The translations under genes were made by a program, and so were the position numbers. From Candidatus Zixiibacteriota bacterium (GTDB lineage Bacteria > Zixibacteria > MSB-5A5 > GN15 > FEB-12): DNA of 64,000 nucleotides. Below the pieces are notes generated by a model, which ran no database searches, was not told where the DNA came from, and saw only the letters and a program-made list of their open reading frames with translations. The stretch is taken from positions 62,001 to 126,000 of the forward strand of contig JAOUBJ010000012.1 in the NCBI GenBank assembly GCA_029860345.1, written 5' to 3'. Of the stretch, positions 1,665 to 35,633 are shown piece by piece; position 1 is the stretch's first letter, and every line of letters starts with the position of its first letter.

Positions 1665-2948
1665 ATGTCTGTTTCCACAAACACCCACCGCAAATGGTGG
1701 TTTGCCGTTCTGATTTGCCTGCTTGCGACAATTCCGGTCGAAATCACGCGAGCAGGCAAGAAAGATGACAAAGAGAAAACCTGCCCGGATTGCCACCCCA
1801 AGATCCACAAGGAAATGAAGGGGGAATTCAATCACAAGCCTTTTGACAAGCGAAACTGCGAAGCCTGCCACGCCGGCCACGGTTTTCGTAATAATCTGGT
1901 TCTTAACGGTTCTGTCATGGAAGTCTGTACTTCCTGCCACGAGACTATCGAAGACCTGCCTCAAGTCGGCTTGCACTACCCTATTCTTCAAGAGAACAGT
2001 TGCGTCGAATGCCATGAACCCCACAGCGCCGATAACGAAAAACTGCTCAAAGTGCCGGGGATCGGGGGTTGTTTTGAGTGTCACGACGAGCCTCCTCCGG
2101 CGGGCAAAGGTGTTCACCAACCGTATGCCGATTCATCCTGCTTTGACTGCCACAATGCCCACGGCTCGATGTTTGCCGGACTTCTGCAGCTACCGCCCGG
2201 GTATATTTGTCTGGGCTGCCACGATGGCGTCCTTGATGGCTTCGGGCCCAACGAGATGCACTCCGGCGACGACCTGAGCTCCTGTGAACGATGCCACGAC
2301 GGCCATGAGTCACCCCATACCGCACTCCTCAAGAAAGAACCTTATGACCTTTGCCTTAGCTGTCACGAGAGTATAAAAGAGCTGCTGGTCGGCGATGAAA
2401 TACATGAAGCTCTCGAAGATGACGACTGCCTGATTTGCCACACGGTTCATTTCTCCAGGCATGGCTCGTCACTCACAGACCCACAGAAGGATCTTTGTTC
2501 GGGCTGCCACGGTGAGATTGAAGAAGCTATCAGCGCCGAGAACAGCCATGCTGTTCTGGAAGACGAGGACTGCACGCTTTGTCACGATCCCCACTCGGCG
2601 AAACTTAGCGATAATCAGGTGGATCTATGCATCGCCTGCCATGATAATGAGGATACTGTTTTTGTGGACAAGCATATCAAACTTGACCCCAAAAACTGTC
2701 GCGATTGTCATAATCCTCACGGCTCATCTCGGGCCGTGCTCATAAACGATGACCTGCATGTTCCGTTTGAGGATGGTGAGTGCGAAAGCTGTCATGAGGA
2801 CGGAATGACACCTTCCGATTTGCGATCGGAGGACATTTGTCTCAACTGTCACGATGTTGAGCCATCGGAAAGCCCTCATAACTCGTTGGAAATGAATAAC
2901 AAAGCGTGTGTCGATTGTCATTCGCCTCATACAGCACAATTACGATAA
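1665..2948 (+). CDS. 17-heme c-type cytochrome (doubled-CXXCH type)
   Basis: 427 residues with a Sec-type signal (residues about 1-30, KWWFAVLICLLATIPVEITRA). I count 17 CXXCH motifs, from CPDCH near residue 40 to CVDCH near 420. Many alternate as CxxCHxPHS/HG and CLxCH, the doubled-CXXCH pattern of periplasmic and extracellular multiheme cytochromes. That is one heme per 23 residues, with almost no other fold content, so it is likely a heme wire moving electrons across the periplasm or outside the cell. No convincing Shine-Dalgarno precedes the ATG, so the start is only moderately certain. It probably ends the first operon; the 832-bp gap that follows holds a regulatory region. Confidence 0.93.
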   Translation: MSVSTNTHRKWWFAVLICLLATIPVEITRAGKKDDKEKTCPDCHPKIHKEMKGEFNHKPFDKRNCEACHAGHGFRNNLVLNGSVMEVCTSCHETIEDLPQVGLHYPILQENSCVECHEPHSADNEKLLKVPGIGGCFECHDEPPPAGKGVHQPYADSSCFDCHNAHGSMFAGLLQLPPGYICLGCHDGVLDGFGPNEMHSGDDLSSCERCHDGHESPHTALLKKEPYDLCLSCHESIKELLVGDEIHEALEDDDCLICHTVHFSRHGSSLTDPQKDLCSGCHGEIEEAISAENSHAVLEDEDCTLCHDPHSAKLSDNQVDLCIACHDNEDTVFVDKHIKLDPKNCRDCHNPHGSSRAVLINDDLHVPFEDGECESCHEDGMTPSDLRSEDICLNCHDVEPSESPHNSLEMNNKACVDCHSPHTAQLR

Positions 2949-3706: not shown

Positions 3707-3722
3707 TGTGATTGTCCTCACA
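3707..3722. promoter_or_regulatory. CRP/FNR-family operator 3
   Basis: TGTGA-TTGTCC-TCACA, perfect arms, followed by AGAA as in site 2. Its centre is about 66 bp before the ATG at 3781. It overlaps an in-frame alternative start near 3712, one reason I place the gene start downstream. Confidence 0.7.
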
Positions 3723-3739
3723 AGAAGTCCGAGTTATCT

Positions 3740-3760
3740 TCCAGCGCTGTAGGCGCTGGA
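3740..3760 (+). promoter_or_regulatory. Hairpin in the 5' leader of the FN3/propeller gene
   Basis: TCCAGCGC / GCGCTGGA is a perfect 8-bp stem with a TGTAG loop, 20 nt before the start codon and just before the GGAGGG ribosome site. No U-tract follows, so it is not a simple terminator; it could stabilise the mRNA or affect translation. Confidence 0.5.
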
Positions 3761-3780
3761 CCTTCTTTGGAGGGAACAGC

Positions 3781-5382
3781 ATGAAGCTAACAAAAGGTTC
3801 ATTAAAAGGATTGGAACGCAACATGACAACGAGGACTTGTCGTTTACTGACGGTTGCACTGCTGGTGACACTCATGATGGTGTCGTCGACTTATGCAGCC
3901 GGACCAAAACTGGTTGGTGCTTTCTTTGTCAAAGGAAAAGTTGGGTTGAAATGGACGGCTGTCGCAAACGCCTCCGAGTACATCATATATCGCAAGGATG
4001 CCAGTAGCGACTTTGCAAAACTGGGAGCCACCGACAAAACAAATTACTTTGACACTCAACTACAGGCTGGGGCTGTTTACACATATAAGATAGCCGCTGT
4101 TGTTGACGGCGCCGAGATCGAAGGTTCTACCAAAGATGTCAAGTTGCCGGCTTCGATCGATGCTTTTTCTGCGCCAAGAGGCGTGATGTTGCGGGTAAAT
4201 GATCGCGGAAACGGAATATCCCTTAGATGGGATAAAGTAAAAGGGGCTATCGCTTACAACGTCCTTCGCTCTTCAACGGCCGGCTCAGGACATGAGTTGG
4301 TTGGTAATGTTTCAGAGAACTCATACAACGACAAAGAGAATCTCGTCGGTGGCACTGTCTACTACTATACTGTAATTGCGATGAATGAGGAGTTTGAGGA
4401 GAGTGGTCCCTCGGAAGAAGTCACGATGAAGTTCGGACTGTCCGAAGAGGAACTGGCGGAACTGGCCGCCGCCGAATCAACTATTGATCTGGACTCCATC
4501 AAACTTGAATTTGTTTTTGAAGTGACAGAGGCGGAAGGCACACCGCTGAAGAATCCTACCAACCTTGATATCAATTCCAAAGGTGATATTTATATCACAG
4601 ACAAGAATAACCAAAGAGTTGTCTGCACCGACAACAGGGGAAATGTGAAGTTTACCTTTGGAACGGGCATGGAGTCCGATGAGCGGGACGATCCGCCTGA
4701 GGGAGCGTTTTTGTCCCCCTTCCAGCTTGCTATAGACACGAAGGACCAAGTCTACGTGGCGGACGTCGTTACAAACAACATACAAGTGTTCACGGCCGAT
4801 GGTAAATTCATCAAGAGAATCATCGTACCCGTTCAAGGCGAGCAGTCCGGACTCAGAGCAAATGGCCTTGACATTTTTGATGATGGAAGGATTATCTGCT
4901 CTGATGTCGGCAACGGGCGGGTTTTGATTATCGACGACAACGGCAATATCCTCAAAGAGTTTAATTCCGGTGAAACATTTCTCGCTCATTACCCCAACGG
5001 CGTTAAGATAGTCGATGGTAACAGCTTTGTTCACACCAATCCGGTTATTGGCGAGATCATTGTCTCAAATCTTAACGGTGAAGAACAAATGCGTTTTGGC
5101 GGAATGGGTACAAACATCGGCGTGTTTGGCCGTGCGGTTGCTGTGGCTGTCTCAGAAGACGGCATGTACTGGATCTCAGACGCTATGGGTAGCAATGTTC
5201 AAGCCTTCAACAAAGAAGGTGAAGTGAAGATCGTTATACCGACCAACTTTTTCTCAGAAGAGAAACTACAGATTGCCGGACCGCGCGGAATTCTCGTTCA
5301 GGACGGCATGCTATATATAGTAAGTGAAAGAAGCCATAAGTTGTTGGCCTTCACCTATCAGATAACAGTTACGGAAGATTGA
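3781..5382 (+). CDS. Secreted FN3-FN3-beta-propeller (NHL-type) protein
   Basis: 533 residues from the ATG at 3781, chosen for the GGAGGG 7-8 nt upstream; a longer reading from 3712 would start inside an operator. Signal peptide about residues 17-39 (LLTVALLVTLMMVSSTYAA). Two fibronectin type III-like domains follow (about 42-125 and 130-215), with repeated LKWTAV / LRWDKV and Y-x-Y-x-I/V-A signatures. From about 240 comes a beta-propeller with NHL-like blades (NPTNLDINSKGDIYITDKNNQRVV, D-x-x-G-x-x). There is no heme motif. NHL propellers often accompany multiheme cytochromes of metal-respiring bacteria as surface or filament-associated partners; a structural or assembly role is inference. 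It is cotranscribed with the 9-heme cytochrome. Confidence 0.85.
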   Translation: MKLTKGSLKGLERNMTTRTCRLLTVALLVTLMMVSSTYAAGPKLVGAFFVKGKVGLKWTAVANASEYIIYRKDASSDFAKLGATDKTNYFDTQLQAGAVYTYKIAAVVDGAEIEGSTKDVKLPASIDAFSAPRGVMLRVNDRGNGISLRWDKVKGAIAYNVLRSSTAGSGHELVGNVSENSYNDKENLVGGTVYYYTVIAMNEEFEESGPSEEVTMKFGLSEEELAELAAAESTIDLDSIKLEFVFEVTEAEGTPLKNPTNLDINSKGDIYITDKNNQRVVCTDNRGNVKFTFGTGMESDERDDPPEGAFLSPFQLAIDTKDQVYVADVVTNNIQVFTADGKFIKRIIVPVQGEQSGLRANGLDIFDDGRIICSDVGNGRVLIIDDNGNILKEFNSGETFLAHYPNGVKIVDGNSFVHTNPVIGEIIVSNLNGEEQMRFGGMGTNIGVFGRAVAVAVSEDGMYWISDAMGSNVQAFNKEGEVKIVIPTNFFSEEKLQIAGPRGILVQDGMLYIVSERSHKLLAFTYQITVTED

Positions 5383-5461: not shown

Positions 5462-6664
5462 ATGAAGACTGTATTAACCCTCGTTATCGGTGCCGCTCTG
5501 TTGGCGTTACCAATGGCGGCAATTGCTGGAGTCGATGGCGGCGACCACGATCTGGTCGACGGTACTGGTACTACCAACGACGTTTCAGCACTAACCAATC
5601 TTGACTTGTGTACATCATGTCACTTGCCGCATAATGCGGAAGCCGGCGCAGCCCGGTTATGGGCGCAGGCCGTCGGTAGTGCTGCTGGTGTTGCGGGTCT
5701 GTGTCAATCCTGCCACGATGGTACGGTTGCTGCGGAACAAATCACAACCGGTTCGCAGCCTTTTGACAACCATTTGCATTATGGAACGTTGGTTGCAGAC
5801 TATGCTTCCTGCTCCGGTGCCGGAACTTCCTGCCATGACGTTCACACCCAGAATGCTGACGGTACTGGCAAATTCCTGACCACTGCCGCTGCTTCTACCG
5901 GTCAATGTGCCGATTGTCATAATGGTGTTGCCCATACCAACTTCACCCTGGCTGACAAGTTCCTGCAGACCGAAAACCATCCCCAGGATGGATCCTTCGG
6001 CTGTGGTGACTGTCACTCGATCTCTGTAGTCCACGGTACTGGTACTGTTGTGACTCAGAGTGGTAGTGTTGAGCCCGTTGCCGGTCAATGGTTGCTTCCG
6101 ATCGACAACAACACTGCCAACGCCTGGGGTGGCGTCTGTGTCGCTTGCCATGAAACCAATACCGCTCCTTACACCGGTACAGTGACTACCGAAGGCTACA
6201 CTCTTGCCACTTTCAAGAACTCAAGCCCGGCCTCCCTGCTTGGAAGGCACGTAACTGACGGTTCCGGCCCCAATCATACTCAGACTCTGGGTGGTTGCGA
6301 TGACTGCCACTTTGTCCACAGTATGCCTGGTGGTGGTGGAATCGAGATGCTGCAGAAGGTTGACAATACCGACTCAGATGGCTGTGTGGATTGTCACTCT
6401 AACGTAGCCAATGCTCCTATCTTTGGCGCAAACAGTCACCCTGTCGATGCAGATCCTTCTTTCACTTTCCCAGCGGCATTCCCGCTTAGTGATGAGATCG
6501 ACGATGCCAATCACGGCGATGCCAACGATTATGGCTCGGCCGTTTCACAGATCGTTTGTGAGAGCTGTCACTCGGTTCACAGAGATGGTGTAGCGACAAC
6601 GCAGTTCCTGAGAGCGAACAATGACAATGATGCTGTTTGTTCAGCATGTCATACTGCTAACTAA
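5462..6664 (+). CDS. 9-heme secreted c-type cytochrome with one extra CX6CH site
   Basis: 400 residues; GGAGGT about 10 nt before the ATG; clear signal peptide (residues 1-23, ending AIAG). Nine CXXCH motifs: CTSCH, CQSCH, CADCH, CGDCH, CVACH, CDDCH, CVDCH, CESCH, CSACH. A tenth cysteine pair near residue 120 has the form C-x6-C-H (CSGAGTSCH), possibly a non-canonical heme site. The protein is rich in Gly, Thr, Asn and Ala with few charged residues, typical of exposed extracellular cytochromes of filament or matrix type. It follows the propeller gene by 79 bp and is closed by a strong terminator, so those two genes form a unit under the CRP-like operators. Cytochrome call firm; extracellular location inferred. 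Confidence 0.92.
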   Translation: MKTVLTLVIGAALLALPMAAIAGVDGGDHDLVDGTGTTNDVSALTNLDLCTSCHLPHNAEAGAARLWAQAVGSAAGVAGLCQSCHDGTVAAEQITTGSQPFDNHLHYGTLVADYASCSGAGTSCHDVHTQNADGTGKFLTTAAASTGQCADCHNGVAHTNFTLADKFLQTENHPQDGSFGCGDCHSISVVHGTGTVVTQSGSVEPVAGQWLLPIDNNTANAWGGVCVACHETNTAPYTGTVTTEGYTLATFKNSSPASLLGRHVTDGSGPNHTQTLGGCDDCHFVHSMPGGGGIEMLQKVDNTDSDGCVDCHSNVANAPIFGANSHPVDADPSFTFPAAFPLSDEIDDANHGDANDYGSAVSQIVCESCHSVHRDGVATTQFLRANNDNDAVCSACHTAN

Positions 6665-6773: not shown

Positions 6774-7868
6774 TTGAACTACTTGGTACTAACAACAATC
6801 GTTTGTCTTAGCCTGGGCAGCATGTCTGCGGCTTCGCCGGACCTGGAGATTCTTGTTCCGGATAGTCGAGTGTGTGTAAATCATGGCCATGTCATGATAG
6901 TCGGCAAGACGGAAGCAACGATTGTTGATATCATCCTGGACGCAGCAAGCTATGCCAGCATCCCGGTAATCGACAGTTTCTTCCATAAGCAGGTTGAGTT
7001 TGGTTATGGTCTGCACGAAATAAAAATTATCCCTGTCTACTCAGGCATATCCACATCAATAACAGATACTGCAACGATCGAAGTTATATATGCCCCGAAA
7101 GTAAATTTCGAGTTCAAGACATTATATCCTGATTATTGGTTCCACATCCGGGAGCTCGACCCCGTGTGCCTGGACTGCCACGATGTAAACTATGCTGATT
7201 TGGATAAGGTTGAAGGTACAGAATCCTGTTTGAGCTGCCATGTATCTTTGAGAGACAATTTCATCAAGCATACCAAAGGTGAGGACGAGACATGCTTTTT
7301 GTGCCATGACCTTGGTGCGGACCTGGTAGCCGTAATTGACGAACAAACCGAATCAAAGAACCCTTGCTTCAAGTGTCACCAGGACAAGATAAAGTCCTTT
7401 GACCAGGAATATGTCCATGGTCCGGTAGCCGGAGGAAGTTGTCTTATCTGCCATGCGAGTCATGGGTCCGATAATGAGCATCTGCTCAATCTACCGGAGG
7501 ATATGTTGTGCTTTGAGTGTCACAGTGATGTTGAAAAACAGGTGAAGGCTTTGGTTGTCCACCAGCCGTTTATTGAAGGTAAGTGCGGCGAATGTCATGA
7601 TCCTCATTCAACCAATAATGAGTGGATATTGAAAGTGAAATCTGAAGCGGTTTGCCTATCCTGCCATGATCCCGAGGGTGATCTAAAAGAACATGAACAT
7701 CCATTTGCCGTGAAACCAAAGAGGAAACTGCAGAACCACCTGGAATTGACATCAGACGGCCGACTGGAATGCCTTACCTGTCACAACGCGCACTCTTCCG
7801 ACCAAACACACATGGTCAAGTCAGATAGCAACCTCATCTGCTTAGGTTGTCACATGGATTTGTTATGA
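6774..7868 (+). CDS. 10-heme c-type cytochrome with N-terminal beta domain
   Basis: 364 residues. The only start giving a signal peptide (NYLVLTTIVCLSLGSMSAAS) is the TTG at 6774, since an in-frame TGA lies at 6765-6767; the ribosome site is weak. Residues about 25-110 form a heme-free Ig/Y_Y_Y-like beta domain (PDLEILVPDSRV...). The rest holds ten CXXCH motifs (CLDCH, CLSCH, CFLCH, CFKCH, CLICH, CFECH, CGECH, CLSCH, CLTCH, CLGCH), several with the CHDPHS/CHASHG style of doubled-CXXCH cytochromes. It is the first gene of a seven-gene operon and overlaps the next by 4 bp (ATGA). A periplasmic electron carrier feeding the barrel/tetraheme genes is a reasonable inference. Confidence 0.88.
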   Translation: MNYLVLTTIVCLSLGSMSAASPDLEILVPDSRVCVNHGHVMIVGKTEATIVDIILDAASYASIPVIDSFFHKQVEFGYGLHEIKIIPVYSGISTSITDTATIEVIYAPKVNFEFKTLYPDYWFHIRELDPVCLDCHDVNYADLDKVEGTESCLSCHVSLRDNFIKHTKGEDETCFLCHDLGADLVAVIDEQTESKNPCFKCHQDKIKSFDQEYVHGPVAGGSCLICHASHGSDNEHLLNLPEDMLCFECHSDVEKQVKALVVHQPFIEGKCGECHDPHSTNNEWILKVKSEAVCLSCHDPEGDLKEHEHPFAVKPKRKLQNHLELTSDGRLECLTCHNAHSSDQTHMVKSDSNLICLGCHMDLL

Positions 7869-8896
7869 GACATGTCAAATCAATATGTTTGGTGTTCGCT
7901 CTATCAGCTTTATTGCTGGGCAGCTGTGGTAAGCCGCCGACGCCGGTGGAGGAAATATACTGGCCCAAGGCTCCTCAGACTCCAAAGATCAAGTATGTAA
8001 AGACAATCTACGGCAATGAGAGCCTGAAAAGATCGTTTTGGGGTGGTATCAGAGATTTCTTCTTCGGCAAAGGTGACCGGCATTCCATGGGAAAGCCATA
8101 CGGCGTTACCTACGACGGCCGATCAAAACTCTTCATTGCCGATACTGCCAAGAAGGGAATACTGGTTCTCGACCTTGATCGGGGTACCTCGAAGTTTTTC
8201 AATTCATTGGGGAGCCAGGGCTATCTGGCCGAACCGGTCTATATCAAACTCGATAGAGACGGGCTGATCTATGTGAGCGACACAAAACTGAAGAGAGTCG
8301 TGGTCTTCACGCCGGTTTATGAGTTTTCGCATTACATTGGCTCACACGATGATTTCCAAGGACCGGTGGGTATTGCTTTTTCGAGAAATGAAGATAGGAT
8401 ATTCATTGTGGATTCTCAGGGGCATAAGGTAAAGATATTCACTAAGGACGGCAGCTTGGTGGATGAATTTGGCCACCGAGGGGATAAACTGGGCGAGTTT
8501 CACTATCCCTTGACTGTTGCAACAAATAACGGCGATTCGGTCTACATTGTGGACTCTTTTCATTCCTCCGTCCAAGTGTTTGATATTGACGGGACGTTCT
8601 TGTTCAGTTTTGGATCGTCAGAGAGTCATCCCGGGCCAATGGCTCGTCCGAGAGATATTGCTATCGATTCTGACAACAATATTTATATTACCGATGCAAT
8701 CAGAAACGCCGTGCACATTTATGATAATACCGGCAGGGTATTGTTGAGATTTGGACAAGGTGGTGTCAATGCCGGTGAATTCAGACTTCCAGCCGGTATT
8801 TCAATTGATGATGACGATTACATATATATAGGCGATTCAATAAACAAGAGAGTCCAGGTTCTTAGATACCTGGGACAGGAAACCTCTGACAACTGA
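7865..8896 (+). CDS. NHL-repeat beta-propeller lipoprotein
   Basis: 343 residues from the ATG at 7865, which overlaps the upstream stop as ATGA; a TTG 18 bp earlier is in frame but less likely. The signal ends in a lipobox (LLGSC), so lipidation at Cys 21 is expected. A WPKAPQTPKIKYV segment opens the mature protein; this W-P-x-x-P-x-x-P-R/K-I-x-Y-V start recurs in the paralogue at 11.7 kb. About six NHL blades follow (for example ARPRDIAIDSDNNIYITDAIRN). No heme or catalytic motif. Such propellers are common next to extracellular cytochrome genes of Geobacter-type bacteria; the exact role is unproven. It pairs with the tetraheme gene right after it. Confidence 0.88.
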   Translation: MRHVKSICLVFALSALLLGSCGKPPTPVEEIYWPKAPQTPKIKYVKTIYGNESLKRSFWGGIRDFFFGKGDRHSMGKPYGVTYDGRSKLFIADTAKKGILVLDLDRGTSKFFNSLGSQGYLAEPVYIKLDRDGLIYVSDTKLKRVVVFTPVYEFSHYIGSHDDFQGPVGIAFSRNEDRIFIVDSQGHKVKIFTKDGSLVDEFGHRGDKLGEFHYPLTVATNNGDSVYIVDSFHSSVQVFDIDGTFLFSFGSSESHPGPMARPRDIAIDSDNNIYITDAIRNAVHIYDNTGRVLLRFGQGGVNAGEFRLPAGISIDDDDYIYIGDSINKRVQVLRYLGQETSDN

Positions 8897-8906
8897 GGAC
8901 TGTGCC

Positions 8907-9581
8907 ATGAAAAATCTCATAATCTTACTGACAATCGCGAGCATAGCAATATTGAGCAGTCTTTCTCTTGCCGGCGTTCGAGAGACCAAGCACAATTTCA
9001 CATCACAGACCTATAGCCCCGGCGCATTTTTCTACAGTACTACCCGGCCGTGCTCGTTCTGTCATACCGCTCACAACGCCGATCCTACCGATCCGGCGCC
9101 ACTTTGGAATCATGAAAACTCAGGCCAAACCTATGACATGTACAACTCCAATTCCATGAACATGTCACGAACTCCCCAACCAAACAACGGATCGCTGGTT
9201 TGCCTTTCGTGCCACGACGGGACAATTGCCATTAACTCTCTTGCCAACGTACCTGGACCGCAGGGCGCCGGCAACTATGGATCGCCTGGCGGGTCGGCGC
9301 TTGACGGCGCCGGCAAATTGACGGCAGCTTCCGATTCATACATCGGCACAGATTTGCAGGACGACCATCCCGTTGGCATCATCTATGATGACACTCAAGA
9401 TGCAGAACAGGGCTTCGAGCCAAAGACAGGAAACTCTCTCCTATACCCCGATAAGCTCCTGTATGATGGGATCTATGTGGAGTGCAGTTCTTGTCATGAC
9501 CCTCATGATAATAGCAACGGTTCTTTCCTGGTAGAGTCCAATGCCAACTCTGCCCTGTGTGATCGGTGTCATAACAAGTAG
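8907..9581 (+). CDS. Secreted tetraheme c-type cytochrome (OmcE-like architecture), copy 1
   Basis: 224 residues; signal peptide 1-22 (SLSLAG). Four CXXCH motifs: CSFCH, CLSCH, CSSCH, CDRCH. Landmarks in order are RETKHNF, CSFCHTAHNA, APLWNHE, a Met/Asn-rich segment, CLSCHDGTIA, YIGTDLQDDHPV, CSSCHDPHD and a final CxxCH. The order (CH-T-x-H-N, LWN, CLSCHDGT, GTDL-x-x-HPV, SCHDPH) resembles small four-heme cytochromes that polymerise into extracellular filaments, of which OmcE is the type; that link is from memory and unverified. The paralogue at 12.7 kb shares every landmark. It lies between an NHL lipoprotein and an outer-membrane barrel. Confidence 0.9.
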   Translation: MKNLIILLTIASIAILSSLSLAGVRETKHNFTSQTYSPGAFFYSTTRPCSFCHTAHNADPTDPAPLWNHENSGQTYDMYNSNSMNMSRTPQPNNGSLVCLSCHDGTIAINSLANVPGPQGAGNYGSPGGSALDGAGKLTAASDSYIGTDLQDDHPVGIIYDDTQDAEQGFEPKTGNSLLYPDKLLYDGIYVECSSCHDPHDNSNGSFLVESNANSALCDRCHNK

Positions 9582-9592
9582 TAAGAGTTCTC

Positions 9593-11734
9593 TTGAAAGT
9601 AATCGACCACACATATTTCCGGGCGATTTCGTTTCTCCTGCTGCTGTTATGTGCGGACATTAAGGCACAAGACCTAATTGATGGTTTGATTGGAGTTGAC
9701 TTTTTCGCCATTAACTCCTCCAGTGAATCACACCAAAGCAGTTACCCGGCGGTCGATGCAACCCGTTTGATGTCAAACCACTTTGTGAGCTTTGCCAATC
9801 GCGGGAATGTCATAAGCGAGCACTTCGCCAATTACTCCCTTTATACAAAGCTGAGAGGTTCATTTACCGCCATGAACGGGAGGGATGTAGATCAGAGTTC
9901 CTATGTATCTCCGGACATAAATACTCTCAATGGCAACATTTCCTTTTTCCCCAGACGCTCATACAGTCTGAATTTGTTCTATCTCAAGATGAAAGATGTA
10001 GCCCTAAGGTATAGTAAAACCAACCGCTCAAAGACGGAACTCCTGGTTCCCGGCCTTGCAGCTTTACAGAAATACCGGCAGGATGGCACCGAGTACGGAG
10101 CATTTCTTTCAAGCATTCTATTTAAGGGAGCGACGGTAAGAGCAAGCCATAGTGAGAAATCGACTCAGAATTCTTATGACTACGATTTTAGTGAAGACAA
10201 GAATATTGCCGTTACTACCCTCGAGCTTGAAGGTGATATTTTCACCAATACGGCGCAAGTTACGTTTTCGAACAGCATTGATGACGACTCTGTGAGAATC
10301 GTCAGTGGAACAATCAATGAAATCATCCCTCCCGGCATCACCACTACCTTCGTTTTTGATTCGGGTTTTCATTTTATTGATATCATCCCTATGCATATTT
10401 ACAATCAGACGTCACTGACTCTCAATGTAAATCGAGAAAAACGTTATCTGGTCAATATTGAAGTCGAGAAATTCCCGATCCAAAGCGAAAACTTTAGTGA
10501 AGATACTGAATCCAATCTCTTCTTCGATTATCTGGGCAAGGACCTGACGCTAAATGCAAGTTATGTTCGCCAGGATGGTCTCAGGAAGAACACCGGCGCC
10601 AGACAGTTGGACAACATTATTAAGAACGCTCTGAGATATGACCTTACCAGGAAAATCAGTCTGGCTGTAAACACTGAAAAGAGTGACAGAGTAAGCTCGA
10701 AGATCAATAAGAACGATCAGACCGCGGATGAGTTCAAGAATACCTCAACACTTTCTTTTACACAGAAAAGGGGCCTTCTCGGGAGTTTTGCCCATCAGTA
10801 TGGAAAAGTTACTAATGTCAATCCAGACGGAGTGGTAGACATTACCACCGATGCAAAATACATCCCAAGAATCTCTCTGCCATCAAGAAGATTCAAGCAC
10901 AATATGGCTCTCAGTGGTGAGCTGAGTTTTCGAGACCAGGCCGGTGGTACAGTCAGCAACACTACAAACAAGAATATCACGCTTCTGAATACAATGGAGA
11001 TATTCCGCAAGAAGATCAAGTGGGTACCGACCTCTACAGTGAAAATCGACTCAAGACACAAGGTTGAGGACACCCTTGACACCAAAACTAATGAACTGAA
11101 CATTAGCTCAAGCCTCGAAGGCAGTCGACTGGCCACTCAACTGCTGGGAGATGTTTCATCCAAGCTCATCCATTCGTACCTTCGGACCGTAACAGATTCG
11201 GACCCGAAGAGCAATTCAACCATTGGATGGGAGATGATGCTCCAGAAAAAAATCTCTGAGGACCAATCGATCTCTTTTCGCACAGCTCATTCCTGGAAGT
11301 TTGCAAGTGATGTTACCGTTGAAATGGTTGACTCGGTTACACAAACTCCGACCATGGTGAAAGTCCCAACGCCAACACAGTATCAGAACTCAAGTTCAAT
11401 CGGATATAGTTCAACCAAGTATGAGGATGTTGCTTTTTCCACCATCATAACGGTGTCAAATGCCCCTGGTTCCAAAACATATCTGGGGTCAGCATCAGTT
11501 GAAGCCTACATCCCGTATATCAGATTCCCTTTTTCCACAGAAGTCTCCAAACAATACAGGAGTTTGGATGGAATGCCTCTACAGACATCTTTCAAGATGG
11601 AATCTCTGGTTGCGTTTAAGTACAATCAGATGAACCTGAAAATCACACATCTCTATACGTCGGAAAAACTTGTGCTTGACACCTATAGGTCGTGGGAGTT
11701 GTCTATAAGCCTAACGCGGACCTTTGGCATATAG
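9593..11734 (+). CDS. Large outer-membrane beta-barrel, probable porin of a cytochrome conduit
   Basis: 713 residues from a TTG start, the only plausible initiator after the in-frame stop at 9572, with a weak AAGAG ahead. Signal peptide about residues 8-26 (AISFLLLLLCADIKAQ). The mature part alternates polar and hydrophobic residues over its whole length, with many Y/F-x-x-S/N-x-x strand patterns, no Cys after the signal, and a C-terminal SWELSISLTRTFGI strand of the kind recognised by the BAM machinery. Between two NHL/tetraheme pairs, it is placed to act like the MtrB or porin-cytochrome barrels that sheath cytochromes across the outer membrane. Sequence similarity to those families cannot be judged here; the role is inferred from topology and context. 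Confidence 0.75.
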   Translation: MKVIDHTYFRAISFLLLLLCADIKAQDLIDGLIGVDFFAINSSSESHQSSYPAVDATRLMSNHFVSFANRGNVISEHFANYSLYTKLRGSFTAMNGRDVDQSSYVSPDINTLNGNISFFPRRSYSLNLFYLKMKDVALRYSKTNRSKTELLVPGLAALQKYRQDGTEYGAFLSSILFKGATVRASHSEKSTQNSYDYDFSEDKNIAVTTLELEGDIFTNTAQVTFSNSIDDDSVRIVSGTINEIIPPGITTTFVFDSGFHFIDIIPMHIYNQTSLTLNVNREKRYLVNIEVEKFPIQSENFSEDTESNLFFDYLGKDLTLNASYVRQDGLRKNTGARQLDNIIKNALRYDLTRKISLAVNTEKSDRVSSKINKNDQTADEFKNTSTLSFTQKRGLLGSFAHQYGKVTNVNPDGVVDITTDAKYIPRISLPSRRFKHNMALSGELSFRDQAGGTVSNTTNKNITLLNTMEIFRKKIKWVPTSTVKIDSRHKVEDTLDTKTNELNISSSLEGSRLATQLLGDVSSKLIHSYLRTVTDSDPKSNSTIGWEMMLQKKISEDQSISFRTAHSWKFASDVTVEMVDSVTQTPTMVKVPTPTQYQNSSSIGYSSTKYEDVAFSTIITVSNAPGSKTYLGSASVEAYIPYIRFPFSTEVSKQYRSLDGMPLQTSFKMESLVAFKYNQMNLKITHLYTSEKLVLDTYRSWELSISLTRTFGI

Positions 11735-11743
11735 TAAGTAGCT

Positions 11744-12739
11744 ATGATTAGATATTCTTCCATGCTGTTTGTTGGTATCTTACTTGTTGCGCTAACGATA
11801 CCAATCAATGCGATTGCCGGTAAACTGGTTTGGCCACCTCATCCCGATGAGCCAAGAATCGAGTATGTCGGGGAGATTCTCTGCAAAGACCTTCGCGCTG
11901 GAAGCGGCTTCTTCTCCAAGATAACGAACTTTCTCAGCGGCAAAAACCAAGATGATCTTATCAGATTGCCGTATGATGTCATCGTCGTAAAGGATAAGAT
12001 GTACCTTACCTGTCAGGGAATTCCAGCCCTAATTGAAGTGGATCTGTCCGATAACAGCTTTAGTAAGCATCACAACAAGAAGAACCCTTTTGGTTTCCCA
12101 CTTTGCTTATGTCTTGGAAATGATGGAACTATATTCATTACTGACGGCGAAACCAGGTCCGTTTACGAGTTTGCGGATGGAGAAGTCCGTCCTTTCATCA
12201 CCGATGGGCTATCCAGACCAACTGGCATATCGGCCAACGTTGAAAAAGAGAGGCTATATATAGTTGATACCGGTGATCATGATTTGAAGATATTTGATTT
12301 TGATGGAGAGTTGATTAGGACTGTTTCGGAGCATCTGACTACGGAAGATAAGTTTCATTTCCCTACTCATGTTTCAACTACGATCGGCAATAATATTCTC
12401 GTGACCGATGCTCTAAACTACAAGATCAAGAGGTTTGATTCCGATGGACATCTGATTTCATCTTTTGGGGAGGAAGGTGATGGACCCGGGACGTTCTCGC
12501 GTCCCAAAGGTGTGGCGTCTGATAGCGAAGGCAATGTCTATGTGATCGACAATCTGTTTGACAATTTGCAGATATTTGATTCTACCGGCCGTTTCTTACT
12601 GGTGATAGGATCTGTGGGCAGTCAAACCGGGCAGTTCTACTCCCCCTCAGGAGTTGCAATAACCAATGACACCGTATATATTGCAGATACATATAATGAC
12701 CGAATTCAAATCCTTCATTTCTTAGGATGTCCAAAATGA
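11744..12739 (+). CDS. NHL-repeat beta-propeller protein, paralogue of the 7.9-kb lipoprotein
   Basis: 331 residues; ATG 9 bp after the barrel gene. Signal peptide residues 1-26 (INAIAG) with no lipobox Cys, unlike its paralogue. The mature N-terminus KLVWPPHPDEPRIEYV matches the paralogue's opening, and both next have an F-F-x-K-I/G-I-x-x-F linker, then six NHL-type blades (RPKGVASDSEGNVYVIDN, SPSGVAITNDTVYIAD). The pair lipoprotein propeller/free propeller suggests one membrane-tethered and one soluble or surface form. It is followed, through a 4-bp ATGA overlap, by the second tetraheme gene, mirroring the first NHL/tetraheme pair. Confidence 0.87.
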   Translation: MIRYSSMLFVGILLVALTIPINAIAGKLVWPPHPDEPRIEYVGEILCKDLRAGSGFFSKITNFLSGKNQDDLIRLPYDVIVVKDKMYLTCQGIPALIEVDLSDNSFSKHHNKKNPFGFPLCLCLGNDGTIFITDGETRSVYEFADGEVRPFITDGLSRPTGISANVEKERLYIVDTGDHDLKIFDFDGELIRTVSEHLTTEDKFHFPTHVSTTIGNNILVTDALNYKIKRFDSDGHLISSFGEEGDGPGTFSRPKGVASDSEGNVYVIDNLFDNLQIFDSTGRFLLVIGSVGSQTGQFYSPSGVAITNDTVYIADTYNDRIQILHFLGCPK

Positions 12740-13389
12740 GGATTAAGTTAGTCATATCGTTCTTTTGTCTGGTCTCCCTGTTTTCAGTATATGGTGCCTT
12801 TGGCGCCGGTACCATCAATGATACGCGGCACAACCTGTCGGTGTCGGGCACAGGTGATATAAAATCACCCACAGAGACTCGTGTTTGTATTTTCTGTCAC
12901 AGCAGTCACAACGCTTCCACAGAGGGCCCCCTTTGGAATCACAAGACGGCTTCTCAAAAAACATTCCAAACATACCAGCGTTCAACAATGTACAGCAGAC
13001 CCGAACAGCCGAATGGCTCAACCAAATTGTGTCTCTCCTGTCATGACGGTACGATTGCCGTGGGGGCCGTTCACAATAGAGCTTCTGTCATACCTATGAA
13101 CAATGTAGGCTCTTCGGGCGAGATACCCGCTACCAGAGAGAGTCACATTGGAACGGACCTAAGTGGTACCCATCCGGTGTCGGTCAAATTTGATCAGCAG
13201 GTCGCCCTGTCGAGCAGTCACCTAAAATGGCCAATATCGAATCTGAGTGAGTCAGCCATGGTTGACTATAATGGCTTTGTGCAATGTACATCCTGCCACG
13301 ATCCACATGATGACTCTAAATCGGTTAAGTATCCATTTTGGAGAGCATCCACTTTCAGCGAGGTCTGTAAGGCTTGTCACGAGTTTTAG
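12736..13389 (+). CDS. Secreted tetraheme c-type cytochrome (OmcE-like architecture), copy 2
   Basis: 217 residues from the ATG at 12736 (ATGA overlap with the upstream stop, AGGA 9 nt before); an in-frame ATG at 12727 is the alternative. Signal peptide ends near SVYGAFGAG. Four CXXCH: CIFCH, CLSCH, CTSCH, CKACH. Landmarks shared with copy 1: DTRHNLS (RETKHNF), CHSSHNA, GPLWNHK, CLSCHDGTIAVG, HIGTDLSGTHPV, CTSCHDPHD. Spacing between hemes 2 and 3 is shorter than in copy 1. As a duplicated small tetraheme pair around a barrel gene, these are the best filament-subunit candidates in the window. Cytochrome identity is certain; polymerisation is inference. Confidence 0.9.
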   Translation: MRIKLVISFFCLVSLFSVYGAFGAGTINDTRHNLSVSGTGDIKSPTETRVCIFCHSSHNASTEGPLWNHKTASQKTFQTYQRSTMYSRPEQPNGSTKLCLSCHDGTIAVGAVHNRASVIPMNNVGSSGEIPATRESHIGTDLSGTHPVSVKFDQQVALSSSHLKWPISNLSESAMVDYNGFVQCTSCHDPHDDSKSVKYPFWRASTFSEVCKACHEF

Positions 13390-13397
13390 GAGAAGAG

Positions 13398-14462
13398 TTG
13401 AAGAACACAATCTACATAATAGCTTTCACAGTTGCCTTTCTTTCAATAGGTAGTTCATTTGCTCACATCGACAATTCTCTGCTTCCCGAAGAATGCGGTT
13501 CCTGTCATGCTGGACATGGCCTCAAGGGCGAACCGATGCTGAACCACGCCGAAGAAGAAATGTGCTACCAGTGTCATGGTTCGGAGAGTAACCGAGCCAT
13601 GATGAAAGCAACCGGAAGACTGGCTCAGCAGGCCGAACTTGCTGATCTGGAGAAGGAATTCAACAAGCTCTATCGTCATCCTGTCAAGCAGGGTACGGGC
13701 CATTCGTCGAACGAGAGGTTACCCGGTTTATCCTCATCGTCGGTCAATCATGCAGAATGTGTTGACTGTCACAACCCACACCAGGAGATTGTCGGTGGAG
13801 AGAAGAATTACGATGTTCGCGGCTTGAGTCTCTCCAGTCAATATGTCGACAAGGCCAGTGAAGAATACGAGATATGCTTGAAATGCCATGGAACTGACTT
13901 TGGTATTAGAAGTACATCCAAGAATTTCACGCAGGTGTTTGCTCTCAACAACCGGTCACAACATCCGGTAACAAAGGACATACAAAACAACAGGTCGGTC
14001 AGCCTGCTGATATCATTGGATTTCGAGAGTAGTCTAAAGTGTTCCGACTGCCACAGCAACGACAACAAAGATGGTCCCAAAGGGCCTCATGGCTCAAGAC
14101 ACAAATACTTGCTCAGTGGCAACTACGACACCGATGTGTACAACATCGAAAACAATCATGCTTATGAGTTCTGCTACTCTTGTCACAGCAGAACAAGTAT
14201 CCTGTCCAATGAAAGTTTCCCGCTACACAGAGAACACATTGTTGGTGATCTCGCCCGGAATCGAAAAGGGACTTCCTGCTATACTTGTCATGCTTCCCAC
14301 AGCTCCAAGGACAGTGAGTATCTGATAGCCTTTAATCCGGAAGCCGTCACTGCAGACGATGTTTCTCGCAAGGTTGAGTTTGATTCTTTTGATACGAATT
14401 CAGGTGCTTGTTATCTGAAATGCCACGATCATTCCCACAGTCCGGGGAGATACGAGAAATAG
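13398..14462 (+). CDS. 7-heme c-type cytochrome with one CX3CH site
   Basis: 354 residues from the TTG at 13398, chosen because AGGAG lies 5 nt before it; an earlier TTG at 13374 lies inside the upstream gene. Signal peptide KNTIYIIAFTVAFLSIGSSFAH. Seven CXXCH: CGSCH, CYQCH, CVDCH, CLKCH, CSDCH, CYSCH, CYTCH. The C-terminal CYLKCHDHSHS is a CX3CH variant rich in His, which could still bind heme. RHPVKQGTGH and QHPVTKD segments supply HPV ligand histidines of the kind seen in doubled-CXXCH proteins. Last gene of the operon starting at 6774. Confidence 0.9.
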   Translation: MKNTIYIIAFTVAFLSIGSSFAHIDNSLLPEECGSCHAGHGLKGEPMLNHAEEEMCYQCHGSESNRAMMKATGRLAQQAELADLEKEFNKLYRHPVKQGTGHSSNERLPGLSSSSVNHAECVDCHNPHQEIVGGEKNYDVRGLSLSSQYVDKASEEYEICLKCHGTDFGIRSTSKNFTQVFALNNRSQHPVTKDIQNNRSVSLLISLDFESSLKCSDCHSNDNKDGPKGPHGSRHKYLLSGNYDTDVYNIENNHAYEFCYSCHSRTSILSNESFPLHREHIVGDLARNRKGTSCYTCHASHSSKDSEYLIAFNPEAVTADDVSRKVEFDSFDTNSGACYLKCHDHSHSPGRYEK

Positions 14463-14626
14463 CATCCTACACGGCGCCCTGTCTTCATCTATCATAGAGA
14501 CTGGCTAGTGTCCCCAGACTATCTGCCCCATCTCCCTTCTTGAGCAACGGATACCGGTTAGGTCTCACTATAAGAGAGCATGATCGGACTGTTATCTTTG
14601 GCTGCGGGGTGCTTGCCTGAAAAGAA

Positions 14627-14655
14627 GAAGCCATCTCAAATCATGAGATGGCTTC
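14627..14655. terminator. Terminator hairpin between convergent genes
   Basis: A perfect 11-bp stem GAAGCCATCTC / GAGATGGCTTC with a 7-nt loop. On the minus strand it is followed by a T-rich TTCTTTTC, so it best serves the minus-strand gene at 14682-15245. It may also stop transcription from the cytochrome operon. Confidence 0.75.
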
Positions 14656-14681
14656 ATTAGTTTCACTGTGCTTGCGGTCTC

Positions 14682-15245: not shown

Positions 15246-15437
15246 ACAAACTCCTTTGCTTGTTTGATACCATCAGTCAATTTCAGTCATTTGCGTCAAC
15301 TAATCTTTCAATTCGGTAGACTGGGAGGTTCAATTGAGATTTTTCGTTGGATAAGCAATGACAGAGGGGGTTTATGTATAAGAATGCAACAGAAAAAGGA
15401 CCAATCCAGCGAGGATTCTATCGTACACTGCGCAGTA

Positions 15438-16021: not shown

Positions 16022-16070
16022 AGGTTTCTGCTGTGGATGGATTATAGGAACGCAACAGACAATATAGGTA

Positions 16071-17609
16071 ATGGCAAATAGAGAGATTACAAGACGCTGT
16101 TTACATGGACTCTTGCAGGTCGTTCTGCTGGTCGGAGTGTTTGCAGTCGGTGTCGGCGCCTTAAACGTAGACTATGTTGGTTCTATCGAGGAAAGCCTCT
16201 ATGCGCCAACATCGCTTGAAGTGTTTGATAACGGTCTGGCCGTACTGGAGCCGTTCTCGGACGAAATCAAGCTGTTCACCGTCGACGGTGTGATAACTCA
16301 AAAGCTGCATCTAAAGGGCGAACCACATGGTCTGACCCACATTGTCAATAACCGCTTCATGTTTTGTGATCGTAAACAGCAGGCGGTAATTGAGGTTGAT
16401 CTCGACAACTATTCCGAACAAGTACTCCTCGGGCAATCGGTGTCACTTAACGATCCCGTTGACCTGGTGCAGAACGGTCAGACGCTGTACATACTGGACG
16501 CCGGACTGGCCGCGATTCTTGAGATCGGCGCGGCGCTTAAACTGACACGAACGATTCCGTTGGTCGATGACGAGGGCCAACGGCTGGCGTACGCTTCGAG
16601 TTTCTGTTTCGATGCACACTTGAAGCGGTTCTATGTTCTGGACCAAATCAACTCACGCATTTCTGCCTTTGACGAAACGGGTGCATTGGTTACCAGCTTT
16701 GGGTCGTTCGGTCGAGGCGCGGGTCAGTTTACACGTGGTGGCGAATTGGCTCTTTCCGAAGGCGGTCACATTTTTGTGACCGACCGTTTTCAGGGACGGG
16801 TTCTGGTATATGATTCCGATGGTGAATTTGCCGGAGCAATAGGTCCGGTCTCTGCAGGCGAGCCCGGCCTGGCGGTGCCGACCGGTATCGATGTCGATGA
16901 AAACGGTTTGCTGTTTGTTGCTTCTACGATGACTCCTTCGATCAATATCTATCATGTCGCGCTCAGTCCGGACATGCACAGACTGGCGGTGGCGCAACCG
17001 CAATTTCCGTTGGATGGGGCCCAGTTGAGCGCTGACGAGATAACTATTATCGCCTTTGCCGATATTGTGTCGGACGGTCTGGAGGTGTCCGGGTTTGATT
17101 TCCAACTGTTCGATCATCCCGATTCAGGGCAGCCGTTGCTTGAATTGCACGGTGTGGAAGGCGTGTTGCACGACCTCGATTCACTCCAGAGCCAACGACT
17201 GATCGCCAACTGGACACCAGACACCCGGCTTGGCAGTGATGTCGATTACTGCTGGCGCGCTCGCACCCAGGGGCGGGATACGGTCGGCGAGTGGTCGGCT
17301 TTGCAGTCTTTCCGGTTGAGTTCTCTTCCGACTGAGTTCCGGCTGGATCAAAACTACCCCAACCCGTTCAACTCGGGTACCAGGATCGGCTTCTCGCTTC
17401 CGAATCGAAGCAACGTGACCCTCGAAGTGTTCAGCCTGCTGGGGCAACGGGTCGCTGTGGTACACGAGGGCTCACTGCCGGAGGGATACCACGAGGTTAC
17501 TTGGAATGGTGCAGACGACAACGGTGCATCGGTTGCGACCGGCGTATATTTCTACAGGCTGCGTGCGGCAAACCTTGTGCAAACGAAAAAAATGGTATTG
17601 TTGAAATAG
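16071..17609 (+). CDS. Secreted beta-propeller protein with type IX secretion C-terminal sorting domain
   Basis: 512 residues; weak AGGTA before the ATG; signal peptide about residues 15-32 (LLQVVLLVGVFAVGVGA). Residues about 35-310 form an NHL/6-bladed propeller; about 325-425 is an FN3-like domain with the WTPDTRLGSDVDYCWRART segment; 430-512 is a classic FlgD-Ig/T9SS type A sorting domain (LDQNYPNPFNSGTRI, LEVFSLLGQRV, G-x-H-E-V-T-W-N-G-x-D, GVYFYRLRA, KKMVLLK). This domain directs export across the outer membrane by the type IX system in FCB bacteria, so surface or extracellular placement is well supported. First gene of a tight operon leading to the giant cytochrome. Confidence 0.9.
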   Translation: MANREITRRCLHGLLQVVLLVGVFAVGVGALNVDYVGSIEESLYAPTSLEVFDNGLAVLEPFSDEIKLFTVDGVITQKLHLKGEPHGLTHIVNNRFMFCDRKQQAVIEVDLDNYSEQVLLGQSVSLNDPVDLVQNGQTLYILDAGLAAILEIGAALKLTRTIPLVDDEGQRLAYASSFCFDAHLKRFYVLDQINSRISAFDETGALVTSFGSFGRGAGQFTRGGELALSEGGHIFVTDRFQGRVLVYDSDGEFAGAIGPVSAGEPGLAVPTGIDVDENGLLFVASTMTPSINIYHVALSPDMHRLAVAQPQFPLDGAQLSADEITIIAFADIVSDGLEVSGFDFQLFDHPDSGQPLLELHGVEGVLHDLDSLQSQRLIANWTPDTRLGSDVDYCWRARTQGRDTVGEWSALQSFRLSSLPTEFRLDQNYPNPFNSGTRIGFSLPNRSNVTLEVFSLLGQRVAVVHEGSLPEGYHEVTWNGADDNGASVATGVYFYRLRAANLVQTKKMVLLK

Positions 17610-17619
17610 GTCCGACGAG

Positions 17620-18327
17620 ATGCAAAAGAACCTGTTGATAATAATTGCGACAGTTGTGTTGGTGTCAGCATCGATGGTGTTCGCCGTAGACGACCCCCAC
17701 GGCACGACGAATTCCATTTACTGTGAACAGTGTCACATCAATCACAACTCGATGGGCGACATTCTGACTAACGCCACCGACTCACTGGTTGCGACTCTTT
17801 GTCTATCGTGTCATACACCGGGTGGCTGGGTACCGATGTCCAAGACCCTGTCGACCAAGCAGCAGGCCGATCCCGGCACGATTGGCACTTCCCACGCCTG
17901 GGATGCCCCGGCGGACAATGCCGATCTGGGTGCGTCGCTGCCGACCACTCAGGCGCTGTTGGACCATCTGACCCTGGACGACCGAATCACTTGCGGCACC
18001 TGTCACGATCCGCACAGCAACAGTAATTCACCATTTCTCAGGCTGGACAATTCGGCCGATGCGCTTTGTTTGGATTGCCACGCCGGTCGCGACAACAGCG
18101 ATGTAAAAACGTACACCGGTAATGAGCTATCGCACCCGGTCGGCATAGCCCTGCCTTCAGATGCTGATTTCCACAACCCGCCGTTGGACGTTGATGGGGT
18201 GGCGCAGCCAAACGACGGCAATCTTACCAATGACTTTGCGCTCTTAGCCGGCGACGTGGTGAGTTGCACGACTTGCCACGGCGTGCATTACTCAGATTCT
18301 AACTCGGGTACGACCGACGGACCATAG
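17620..18327 (+). CDS. 5-heme secreted c-type cytochrome
   Basis: 235 residues, signal peptide 1-22 (SASMVFAV). Five CXXCH: CEQCH, CLSCH, CGTCH, CLDCH, CTTCH. The order CEQCHINHNS, CLSCHTPGGW, CGTCHDPHSNSNSPFLR, ALCLDCHAGRD, SHPVGIALP, CTTCHGVHYSD shares the NxCH, SCHDPH-NS and HPV landmarks of the tetraheme pair but with an added fifth heme and a Ser/Thr/Gly-rich tail. It sits 10 bp after the T9SS-sorted propeller and 3 bp before the giant cytochrome, so all three are likely made together and may act on the cell surface. Confidence 0.9.
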   Translation: MQKNLLIIIATVVLVSASMVFAVDDPHGTTNSIYCEQCHINHNSMGDILTNATDSLVATLCLSCHTPGGWVPMSKTLSTKQQADPGTIGTSHAWDAPADNADLGASLPTTQALLDHLTLDDRITCGTCHDPHSNSNSPFLRLDNSADALCLDCHAGRDNSDVKTYTGNELSHPVGIALPSDADFHNPPLDVDGVAQPNDGNLTNDFALLAGDVVSCTTCHGVHYSDSNSGTTDGP

Positions 18328-26504: not shown

Positions 26505-27566
26505 ATGACGATCAACTTATCCTCCACCCGGCTGGCCTTTGTTCTCATTGCCGTCCTGGTACTGTTTTTGGTACTGTCGGCCATCATACCACAGCGCGAT
26601 ATTTCAGAAGATCAGCTTCTGGACTGGCAGGAGTACCTGGGTGATAATTACGTTGTCATCGATAAGCTTGGGCTGGATCGTATCTACTTCACACCAACGT
26701 TTTTCATCGTGCTCGGGCTACTCGGGGTCAACCTGCTGTTCGGTAACATCAAACGATTCCGAAGCGTTTACCAGGTCGAGAGAACACTTCTCAAAACTCG
26801 CCACCTCGGATCGATACTATTTCACTTTTCGCTGATACTGATAATGGTCGCCGTGATTCTCAATTTCCTCTACAAGTATCACAGTGTACTGGCCATGACT
26901 GAGGGCCAGACGTTGAAGGACCGACCGGAGTCGTACCACCATGAGTTTCACGGTCCCCTCTACGACAATGAGTACGGTCGTTTCACGCTCAGCCTCACCG
27001 ATGTCCTGAGCAACGACGACGCCAGTTTGAGTTTGGGGAATGTGGCGGCTATAGCTGTACAGTCCGCCAGGGCAAAACACGAGACGGAGGTTTCCACCAA
27101 CCACCCGTTTGAACTGGGAGAGCTTCAGTTCCACTACGGACTGAAAAGTGGCTATTCACCCGAGTTTTTTCTGACCGATTCGGCAGGGAACGACCTGTTT
27201 CGTTCATTTGTTCGAGTAGCCAATAGAAAGGAAGAGGGCAAGTACGTGCATCGAGACTTCATTGTGGTCCCGGAGGACAACCTGCATCTTGAGATCGAAG
27301 TAAACCCTGATTCTATTGGGCCAGACATCGCATACCGGATAACGGCCTTACAAGACAGTGTTGAGTTATACGCCGGTAGTATCGGTTCCAACGATACAGT
27401 TGGTTTTGCAGGCTATAAGTTTACTGTTCCCCGGCTGCGGCAGTGGTGCTATATTGATGTCGTGAAAAGTCCGTATCTAAATCTGGTGTTTTTTGGATTC
27501 TGGTCGGCGTTGGCCGGATTGACGCTCAGTTTCGTCAGCAGATTGAAGCGAGCGAAGGCGGCATAG
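26505..27566 (+). CDS. resB: ResB/Ccs1-type cytochrome c biogenesis protein
   Basis: 353 residues with GGAG 6 nt before the ATG. Topology fits ResB: a TM helix at about 9-29 followed by PQRD, a second near 62-82, a third near 100-122, a large periplasmic domain (about 125-320) and a final TM near 325-345. With CcsA/ResC, ResB forms the System II synthase that moves heme to the outside and ligates it to CXXCH apocytochromes. It lies directly after the giant cytochrome and 1 bp before ccsA, so the cluster encodes its own heme ligase. The apocytochrome thiol reductants (ResA, CcdA) are not adjacent; a TlpA-like protein at 43.8 kb is one candidate. Confidence 0.85.
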   Translation: MTINLSSTRLAFVLIAVLVLFLVLSAIIPQRDISEDQLLDWQEYLGDNYVVIDKLGLDRIYFTPTFFIVLGLLGVNLLFGNIKRFRSVYQVERTLLKTRHLGSILFHFSLILIMVAVILNFLYKYHSVLAMTEGQTLKDRPESYHHEFHGPLYDNEYGRFTLSLTDVLSNDDASLSLGNVAAIAVQSARAKHETEVSTNHPFELGELQFHYGLKSGYSPEFFLTDSAGNDLFRSFVRVANRKEEGKYVHRDFIVVPEDNLHLEIEVNPDSIGPDIAYRITALQDSVELYAGSIGSNDTVGFAGYKFTVPRLRQWCYIDVVKSPYLNLVFFGFWSALAGLTLSFVSRLKRAKAA

Positions 27567-27567
27567 A

Positions 27568-28386: not shown

Positions 28387-28395
28387 GCAATCAGG

Positions 28396-35631: not shown

Positions 35632-35633
35632 GG

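Follow-up and report, generated by a model that had tools for sequence, protein, structure and literature searches.

A probable Uet-like electron conduit with OmcE-type tetraheme cytochromes in a Candidatus Zixiibacteriota genome

We analysed a 64,000-nucleotide stretch of DNA (the window) from the 4.76-Mb genome of a Candidatus Zixiibacteriota bacterium and focused on five consecutive genes at 7865-13389 that encode two NHL propeller proteins (PropA and PropB), two tetraheme cytochromes (TetA and TetB) and a large beta-barrel. We consider it probable that they belong to an extracellular electron transfer operon resembling Uet (undecaheme electron transfer), in which a trans-outer-membrane conduit is combined with OmcE-type nanowire cytochromes. 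Uet has been described in Candidatus Tenderia electrophaga and some Gallionella, and the part of that description used here lists undecaheme UetJ, extracellular tetraheme UetA, triheme UetDEG, the peptidyl-prolyl isomerase UetB, the NHL proteins UetHI and the barrel UetC (PMC10734462). A first-pass annotation of the window had proposed the order lipoprotein propeller, tetraheme, barrel, propeller, tetraheme, and all five genes are indeed present on the + strand and tightly packed, with intergenic gaps of 10, 11, 9 and -13 nucleotides (nt). The two propeller-tetraheme pairs, which that annotation called mirrored, are in fact arranged in tandem on one strand.

The evidence that carries this reading starts with the tetrahemes. 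TetA and TetB share 35% identity (E 5e-38), and the landmark motifs noted in the first-pass annotation are common to both. In single-sequence searches of the PDB with phmmer, OmcE of Geobacter sulfurreducens (7TFS) gave the best E-values for the two proteins (3e-23 and 1e-26); 7TFS and 9YUQ, a 'putative multiheme cytochrome c', matched at E 1e-16 to 1e-26, and all other entries lay above 0.03. Profiles built from orthologues only bear out the resemblance to OmcE that the annotation had proposed (Table 1), and besides 7TFS and 9YUQ no PDB entry scored below 0.01. The four CxxCH motifs and four distal histidines are invariant in a 28-sequence alignment that includes OmcE and 9YUQ. When the TetB-type domain of a modelled fusion protein from another locus (L060, see below) was compared with solved structures by Foldseek, its only significant match was 7TFS, all 202 residues of which were covered (35% identity, E 2e-07, template modelling (TM) score 0.66 by target length); the outcome was thus not the 'monomeric periplasmic cytochromes only' that the annotation had named as the contrary result. 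We conclude from these sequences that TetA and TetB are true, full-length homologues of OmcE.

A central question is how the two tetrahemes relate to each other. The propellers too are homologous (32% identity, E 9e-51) and both open with WPxxPxxPxIxYV. The earlier proposal that one of the pairs is a duplicate of the other holds only in a deep sense. In a tree of 156 rows built by a quick method, TetA orthologues form a clade (support 100) and group with stand-alone tetrahemes, while TetB and the TetB-type N-terminal domains of fused proteins lie apart from both the TetA clade and OmcE. The window-type TetB proteins, which end in CxxCH-x-[FY], make up one clade (99) that joins the fused N-domains of other phyla with modest support (91 in the Shimodaira-Hasegawa-like approximate likelihood-ratio test, SH-aLRT). 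A different ending, CxxCH-x-K at the last residue, is found in all TetA orthologues bar one, in nearly all other stand-alone tetrahemes, in OmcE and in 9YUQ. Because TetB groups with fused N-domains and TetA with stand-alone tetrahemes, we conclude from the tree that the TetA/TetB split predates the window operon and that the duplication is old; a recent duplication of the propeller-tetraheme pair is contradicted by the same topology. TetA is likely to be a filament subunit, and TetB is probably a docking unit between filament and conduit.

To what, then, does TetB belong? When named genomes were scanned with the tetraheme alignment, at least 545 relatives were returned, and neighbourhoods were drawn from the best 80, which come from Verrucomicrobia, Planctomycetota, Nitrospirae, Gammaproteobacteria, Bacteroidetes, KSB1, Deltaproteobacteria and others. 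At more than 60 loci spread over many phyla, TetB is fused to an octaheme part of 325-370 amino acids (aa), giving an 11-12-heme product. The fusion recurs in a cassette composed of a stand-alone tetraheme, a propeller, a 3-, 5- or many-heme protein, an open reading frame (ORF) in the barrel slot, a second propeller and the TetB-octaheme fusion; the barrel-slot ORF is heme-free, about 610-750 aa long, and usually has an outer-membrane-type C-terminus. Among 51 anchors with enough upstream sequence to be scored, 41 have a propeller directly 5' of TetB or TetB-octaheme (the PropB slot), 41 have a barrel-size heme-free ORF no more than three genes away, and 32 have a second tetraheme within six genes. 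One gammaproteobacterial locus (L089) encodes a peptidyl-prolyl isomerase, two NHL propellers, an OmcE-type tetraheme, two triheme C7 cytochromes, a 710-aa heme-free ORF and an 11-heme TetB-octaheme, so that the gene classes of the Uet list stand beside homologues of the window proteins.

In the window, the gene directly 3' of TetB encodes an octaheme cytochrome whose eight heme motifs have matching invariant histidines. The fused protein has 11 CxxCH motifs plus one CX3CH where tested, hence 12 heme motifs, and 12 non-motif histidines are invariant in 46 of 46 sequences. A model built from these 46 fusions only (a mixed alignment of fused and unfused proteins misaligned the domains) matched the two window proteins back to back, with TetB covering model positions 6-218 (E 4e-67) and the octaheme 247-571 (E 2e-67). 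Since both proteins match adjoining halves of the fusion model, we read TetB and the octaheme as the split form of the fused 11-12-heme protein. A broken or frameshifted UetJ was considered as the cause of the split and rejected, as the octaheme carries a signal peptide of its own and 19 octaheme sequences show the split.

This architecture also bears on whether TetA and TetB might co-polymerise, alternating or in blocks, into the hetero-filament that the first-pass annotation thought possible. Both are OmcE homologues with the same ligand set, encoded in one operon, which would suit a hetero-filament, but they represent separate old lineages with different C-termini, and TetB is fused to an octaheme in most phyla, a bulky addition for the 34-angstrom helical repeat set by the OmcE rise (PMC12954529). 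This suggests that TetB would sit at the end or base of a filament and not repeat along it, and we regard a hetero-filament as decidedly improbable for the window. Separately, one locus encodes two TetB-octaheme fusions (L073) and three have two stand-alone tetrahemes per cassette (L080, L130 and L137); these duplicated parts are possible hetero-filament candidates.

The middle gene of the five encodes the predicted barrel. Its AlphaFold2 model, built with 12 orthologues, is all-beta with long antiparallel strands (mean predicted local distance difference test score (pLDDT) 82, predicted TM score (pTM) 0.59), and the matches that Foldseek ranked by E-value are large outer-membrane barrels, in agreement with the outer-membrane barrel foreseen from the sequence. 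Among the barrels listed, MtrB (6R2Q_B) had the highest TM-scores (0.42/0.45; E 1.6e-08, root-mean-square deviation 12.6). The barrel sequence had no match in Pfam, NCBIfam or the PDB, and a scan of named genomes found no relative, which we attribute to the barrel diverging too fast.

A candidate wire for the barrel is encoded directly 5' of PropA. The decaheme encoded there overlaps PropA by 4 nt and is translationally coupled to it, and its profile has its best PDB match in 6R2Q_A, the MtrA chain of the Mtr complex (E 2.3e-17); by analogy, it is the candidate wire threading the barrel. The decaheme weighs on a second alternative, in which one propeller-tetraheme pair is periplasmic, the other outside, and tetraheme stacks run through the barrel with no decaheme involved. 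That two pairs flank the barrel gene, with PropA the only lipoprotein of the two propellers, would suit such an inner/outer division of labour. We nevertheless find it improbable, because a decaheme of the barrel-threading kind is coupled to the same genes and because other phyla have the tetraheme before the propeller, so that the flanking geometry is not conserved.

The genes of the first-pass operon are real, but the five are not the whole system: the MtrA-related decaheme, the octaheme and the Uet-like organisation extend beyond them, and the functional unit reaches past 7865-13389 on either side, from 1665 to 29376 (Table 1). The five-gene set lies inside a 13-gene cytochrome cluster of about 25 kb with the order 17-heme, fn3-NHL, 9-heme, 10-heme, PropA, TetA, barrel, PropB, TetB, octaheme, PropC, 5-heme, giant protein. 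This order is kept, entire or in part where contigs end, in about 12 Zixibacteria-related genomes, so the five-gene arrangement is not a matter of chance. Across 132 genomes of this uncultured phylum, the barrel was found in 11 and a tetraheme relative in 17, and loci L066-L070 contain clusters resembling that of the window.

Table 1. Features of the cytochrome cluster and adjoining genes, in window coordinates.
Feature	Coordinates	Strand	Evidence
17-heme cytochrome, evenly spaced paired CxxCH, DmsE-like region	1665..2948	+	17 CxxCH; TIGR01905 2e-58; TIGR03508 1.9e-44 (under cut-off)
fn3 + NHL propeller protein	3712..5382	+	Pfam NHL 1.2e-12, fn3 5.8e-07; conserved in relatives; listed from TTG, true start probably further in
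9-heme cytochrome	5462..6664	+	9 CxxCH; conserved in relatives
MtrA-related decaheme	6774..7868	+	10 CxxCH; additional N-terminal domain of ~120 aa
PropA, NHL 6-bladed propeller lipoprotein	7865..8896	+	Pfam NHL 6.3e-25; lipobox LLLGSC; ORF tool starts at TTG 7847, ATG at 7865
TetA, OmcE-type tetraheme	8907..9581	+	4 CxxCH; profile match 7TFS 8.9e-31, 9YUQ 5.8e-29
Large beta-barrel, MtrB size, ~26 long strands, short-strand insertion at ~residues 204-290	9593..11734	+	AlphaFold2, Foldseek
PropB, NHL 6-bladed propeller, Sec-type signal peptide	11744..12739	+	Pfam NHL 1.5e-22
TetB, OmcE-homologous tetraheme, separate lineage	12727..13389	+	4 CxxCH; profile match 7TFS 3.8e-27, 9YUQ 4.4e-20
Octaheme cytochrome, own signal peptide	13374..14462	+	7 CxxCH + 1 conserved CX3CH; directly 3' of TetB
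PropC, propeller with type IX secretion sorting tail	16071..17609	+	TIGR04183 4.8e-11 (above cut-off)
Pentaheme cytochrome	17620..18327	+	5 CxxCH; adjoins PropC in relatives too
Giant 2718-aa protein, repeated immunoglobulin (Ig)-like units, C-terminal multiheme region	18331..26487	+	At least 11 CxxCH; orthologues 13 hemes
ResB-like + CcsA-like cytochrome c maturation (System II)	26505..28386	+	Pfam ResB 2.1e-19, Cytochrom_C_asm 1.9e-27
PropD, propeller-like lipoprotein candidate	28396..29376	+	Pfam DUF5128 8.8e-04 (under cut-off)

Several of these products can be placed in the cell with differing confidence. The 17-heme cytochrome, whose gene occupies the same place in relatives, is a probable periplasmic electron carrier or bridge. 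A lipobox-like motif was found with a loose regular expression in 37 of 51 PropA homologues, and the window copy of PropB is without a lipobox. For the tetrahemes, the translations show signal peptides. PropC is likely surface-exposed, and the giant Ig-multiheme protein is a probable cell-surface cytochrome. Another reading is a purely periplasmic system in which all the cytochromes serve storage or inter-protein transfer and have no role at the cell surface. Genes for multiheme cytochromes (MHCs) are by themselves no proof of extracellular transfer (PMC9769857), but a large outer-membrane barrel sits mid-operon, PropC has a type IX sorting tail in a genome that also encodes SprA, and the structural relatives of TetA and TetB are of OmcE type only; we find a periplasmic system hard to credit.

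In the extracellular route that we infer, as to locations, barrel threading, docking, polymerisation and direction of electron flow alike, the 17- and 9-heme proteins would pass electrons in the periplasm to the MtrA-related decaheme, which would thread the large beta-barrel. At the outer face, TetB and the octaheme, the counterparts of a single UetJ-like protein in most other bacteria, would receive the electrons, and the OmcE fold of TetB would present a heme-to-heme docking face for TetA. TetA would then polymerise into, or at least stack as, an extracellular heme wire. PropA, as a lipoprotein, and PropB may serve as propeller scaffolds or adaptors at the barrel, and the type IX-tailed PropC, the pentaheme and the giant Ig-multiheme protein may be further surface parts. 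The role of TetB as an anchor for TetA is suggested by its fold, its fusion and the gene order. A more specific version, which we put forward tentatively as possible, is that TetB, the UetJ-like N-domain, acts as a seed or socket on the conduit octaheme and that TetA polymerises onto it with continuous heme stacking.

The conduit could also operate without filaments. TetA and TetB would then be OmcE-fold monomers or short stacks, the last cytochromes, on the cell surface, of a Uet-like porin-cytochrome complex, with no micrometre-long wire. Uet is indeed presented as a complex of porin and multiheme proteins whose tetraheme UetA is extracellular, and the part of PMC10734462 used here makes no mention of a filament; TetB-octaheme fusions, for which a 1:1 stoichiometry is expected, occur in many phyla; and OmcE homology alone is no proof of polymerisation. 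Against this, TetA retains full-length OmcE homology, all four distal ligands and the C-terminal CHxK, and in OmcE one distal ligand, that of heme 2, is supplied by the neighbouring subunit (PMC12203936). We judge a filament-free conduit unlikely, though deserving of serious attention.

Several observations weigh against the reading of the cluster as a Uet-like conduit with nanowire cytochromes. In most other phyla, the barrel-slot proteins have no detectable sequence homology to the window barrel, and the decaheme scores 94.7 bits against the DmsE/MtrA family TIGR03508, short of the cut-off of 192.2. Neither triheme UetDEG nor the peptidyl-prolyl isomerase UetB has a counterpart among the cluster proteins scanned, and for this reason we call the cluster Uet-like rather than Uet. 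Confidence in the L060 fusion model is low for much of the OmcE-like domain near hemes 1 and 2 (residues 81-131); since it is heme 2 of OmcE that takes a ligand from a neighbouring subunit, poor modelling of this region in a monomer fits an interface but does not prove one. Finally, what cytochrome filaments do physiologically is a matter of dispute, according to the part of PMC11077965 cited here.

Further features of the locus and genome can be noted. About 1.6 kb separates the octaheme from PropC (14463-16070) and includes an ORF (14682-15245, - strand) for a 187-aa exported protein of unknown family, with homologues near cytochrome clusters in L052 and L070; this segment looks like an insertion, because in other genomes (e.g. 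L055) PropC starts within a few bases of the octaheme end. PropD is kept near the cluster in L052 and L057. Adjoining the maturation genes on their 3' side, 29725-31182 encodes a BchE-like B12-binding radical SAM protein (TIGR02026, 412 bits, cut-off 481). On the - strand lie an additional small multiheme cytochrome with paired CxxCH motifs (31183-31752), of which a 6-heme homologue is found near the cluster in L052, a protein with weak likeness to the anammox Kustd1514 S-layer glycoprotein family (32068-33087; 5e-08, far under cut-off) and an ArsM-like arsenite methyltransferase (39413-40252; NF008823 above cut-off). Elsewhere in the genome, at about 26600-38300 of another contig (C22), a second large multiheme locus encodes paired-CxxCH proteins of 676 and 417 aa and is possibly another electron conduit.

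Ideas about how cells secrete and anchor cytochrome nanowires are stated to be still speculative (PMC12307469). The TetB-octaheme protein, fused elsewhere and split in Zixibacteria, is a concrete and expressible candidate for the filament-conduit junction, and it links OmcE nanowires with the Uet conduit of cathode-oxidising bacteria, which have been described separately. If TetB does act as seed or socket, cytochrome nanowires would have a molecular anchor in it, and the Uet-like cassette would amount to a machine combining nanowire and conduit, distributed across many phyla. OmcE nanowires, Uet conduits and Mtr conduits are already known. What may be new is the Zixibacteria form, with a split UetJ and a decaheme, together with the view that the UetJ-like N-domain has an OmcE fold, although priority is uncertain: the OmcE-Uet link was not found stated in the literature searched, which excludes the original Uet paper and Baquero 2023.

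The cluster can be compared with several known systems. In the OetABI conduit of sulfate reducers that partner anaerobic methanotrophic archaea (ANME), a porin-cytochrome conduit is likewise encoded together with putative filament cytochromes, which are OmcS- and OmcX-like (PMC10553843); the likeness is one of description, and membership of the OetABI group was rejected because its cytochromes are of OmcS/OmcX type and not OmcE. Also by description, a Geoalkalibacter ferrihydriticus locus in which MtoA homologues occur alongside an OmcE homologue and two NHL proteins (PMC12016550) resembles the window in bringing OmcE-type and MtrA/MtoA-type cytochromes together with NHL proteins, and verrucomicrobial porin-MHC clusters (PMC5615132) resemble it in holding porin and multiheme genes in one locus. 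The parts of these two papers used here contain neither a TetB-octaheme nor an OmcE-fold reading.

The cluster resembles MtrCAB and MtoAB in its decaheme, whose best PDB relative is MtrA although it falls short of the DmsE/MtrA family cut-off, and in its barrel, which among those listed comes nearest to MtrB by TM-score but has no sequence similarity to it. Pfam and NCBIfam scans gave no match to the MtrC/OmcA family above cut-off in the cluster, and the surface partners are instead of OmcE type. OmcE itself and 9YUQ have their four CxxCH motifs and four distal histidines in the same places as the window tetrahemes. OmcE is a nanowire protein; the window tetrahemes, of which TetA is a candidate filament subunit, are encoded in a conduit operon with a barrel, propellers and a decaheme; OmcE is also unlike TetB, which is a separate lineage and is octaheme-fused in other phyla. 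Relative to Uet, the counterparts of UetA, UetHI and UetC in the window are TetA, PropA/PropB and the modelled barrel, at corresponding positions, and that of UetJ is two adjacent genes, TetB and the octaheme, identified by gene list and heme count and not by the Tenderia sequence. The MtrA-related decaheme stands in for the small cytochromes, and the window cluster has about seven genes more. To judge from its genes, the window cluster is thus best described as a Uet-like conduit in which UetJ is split in two and a decaheme replaces the triheme subunits.

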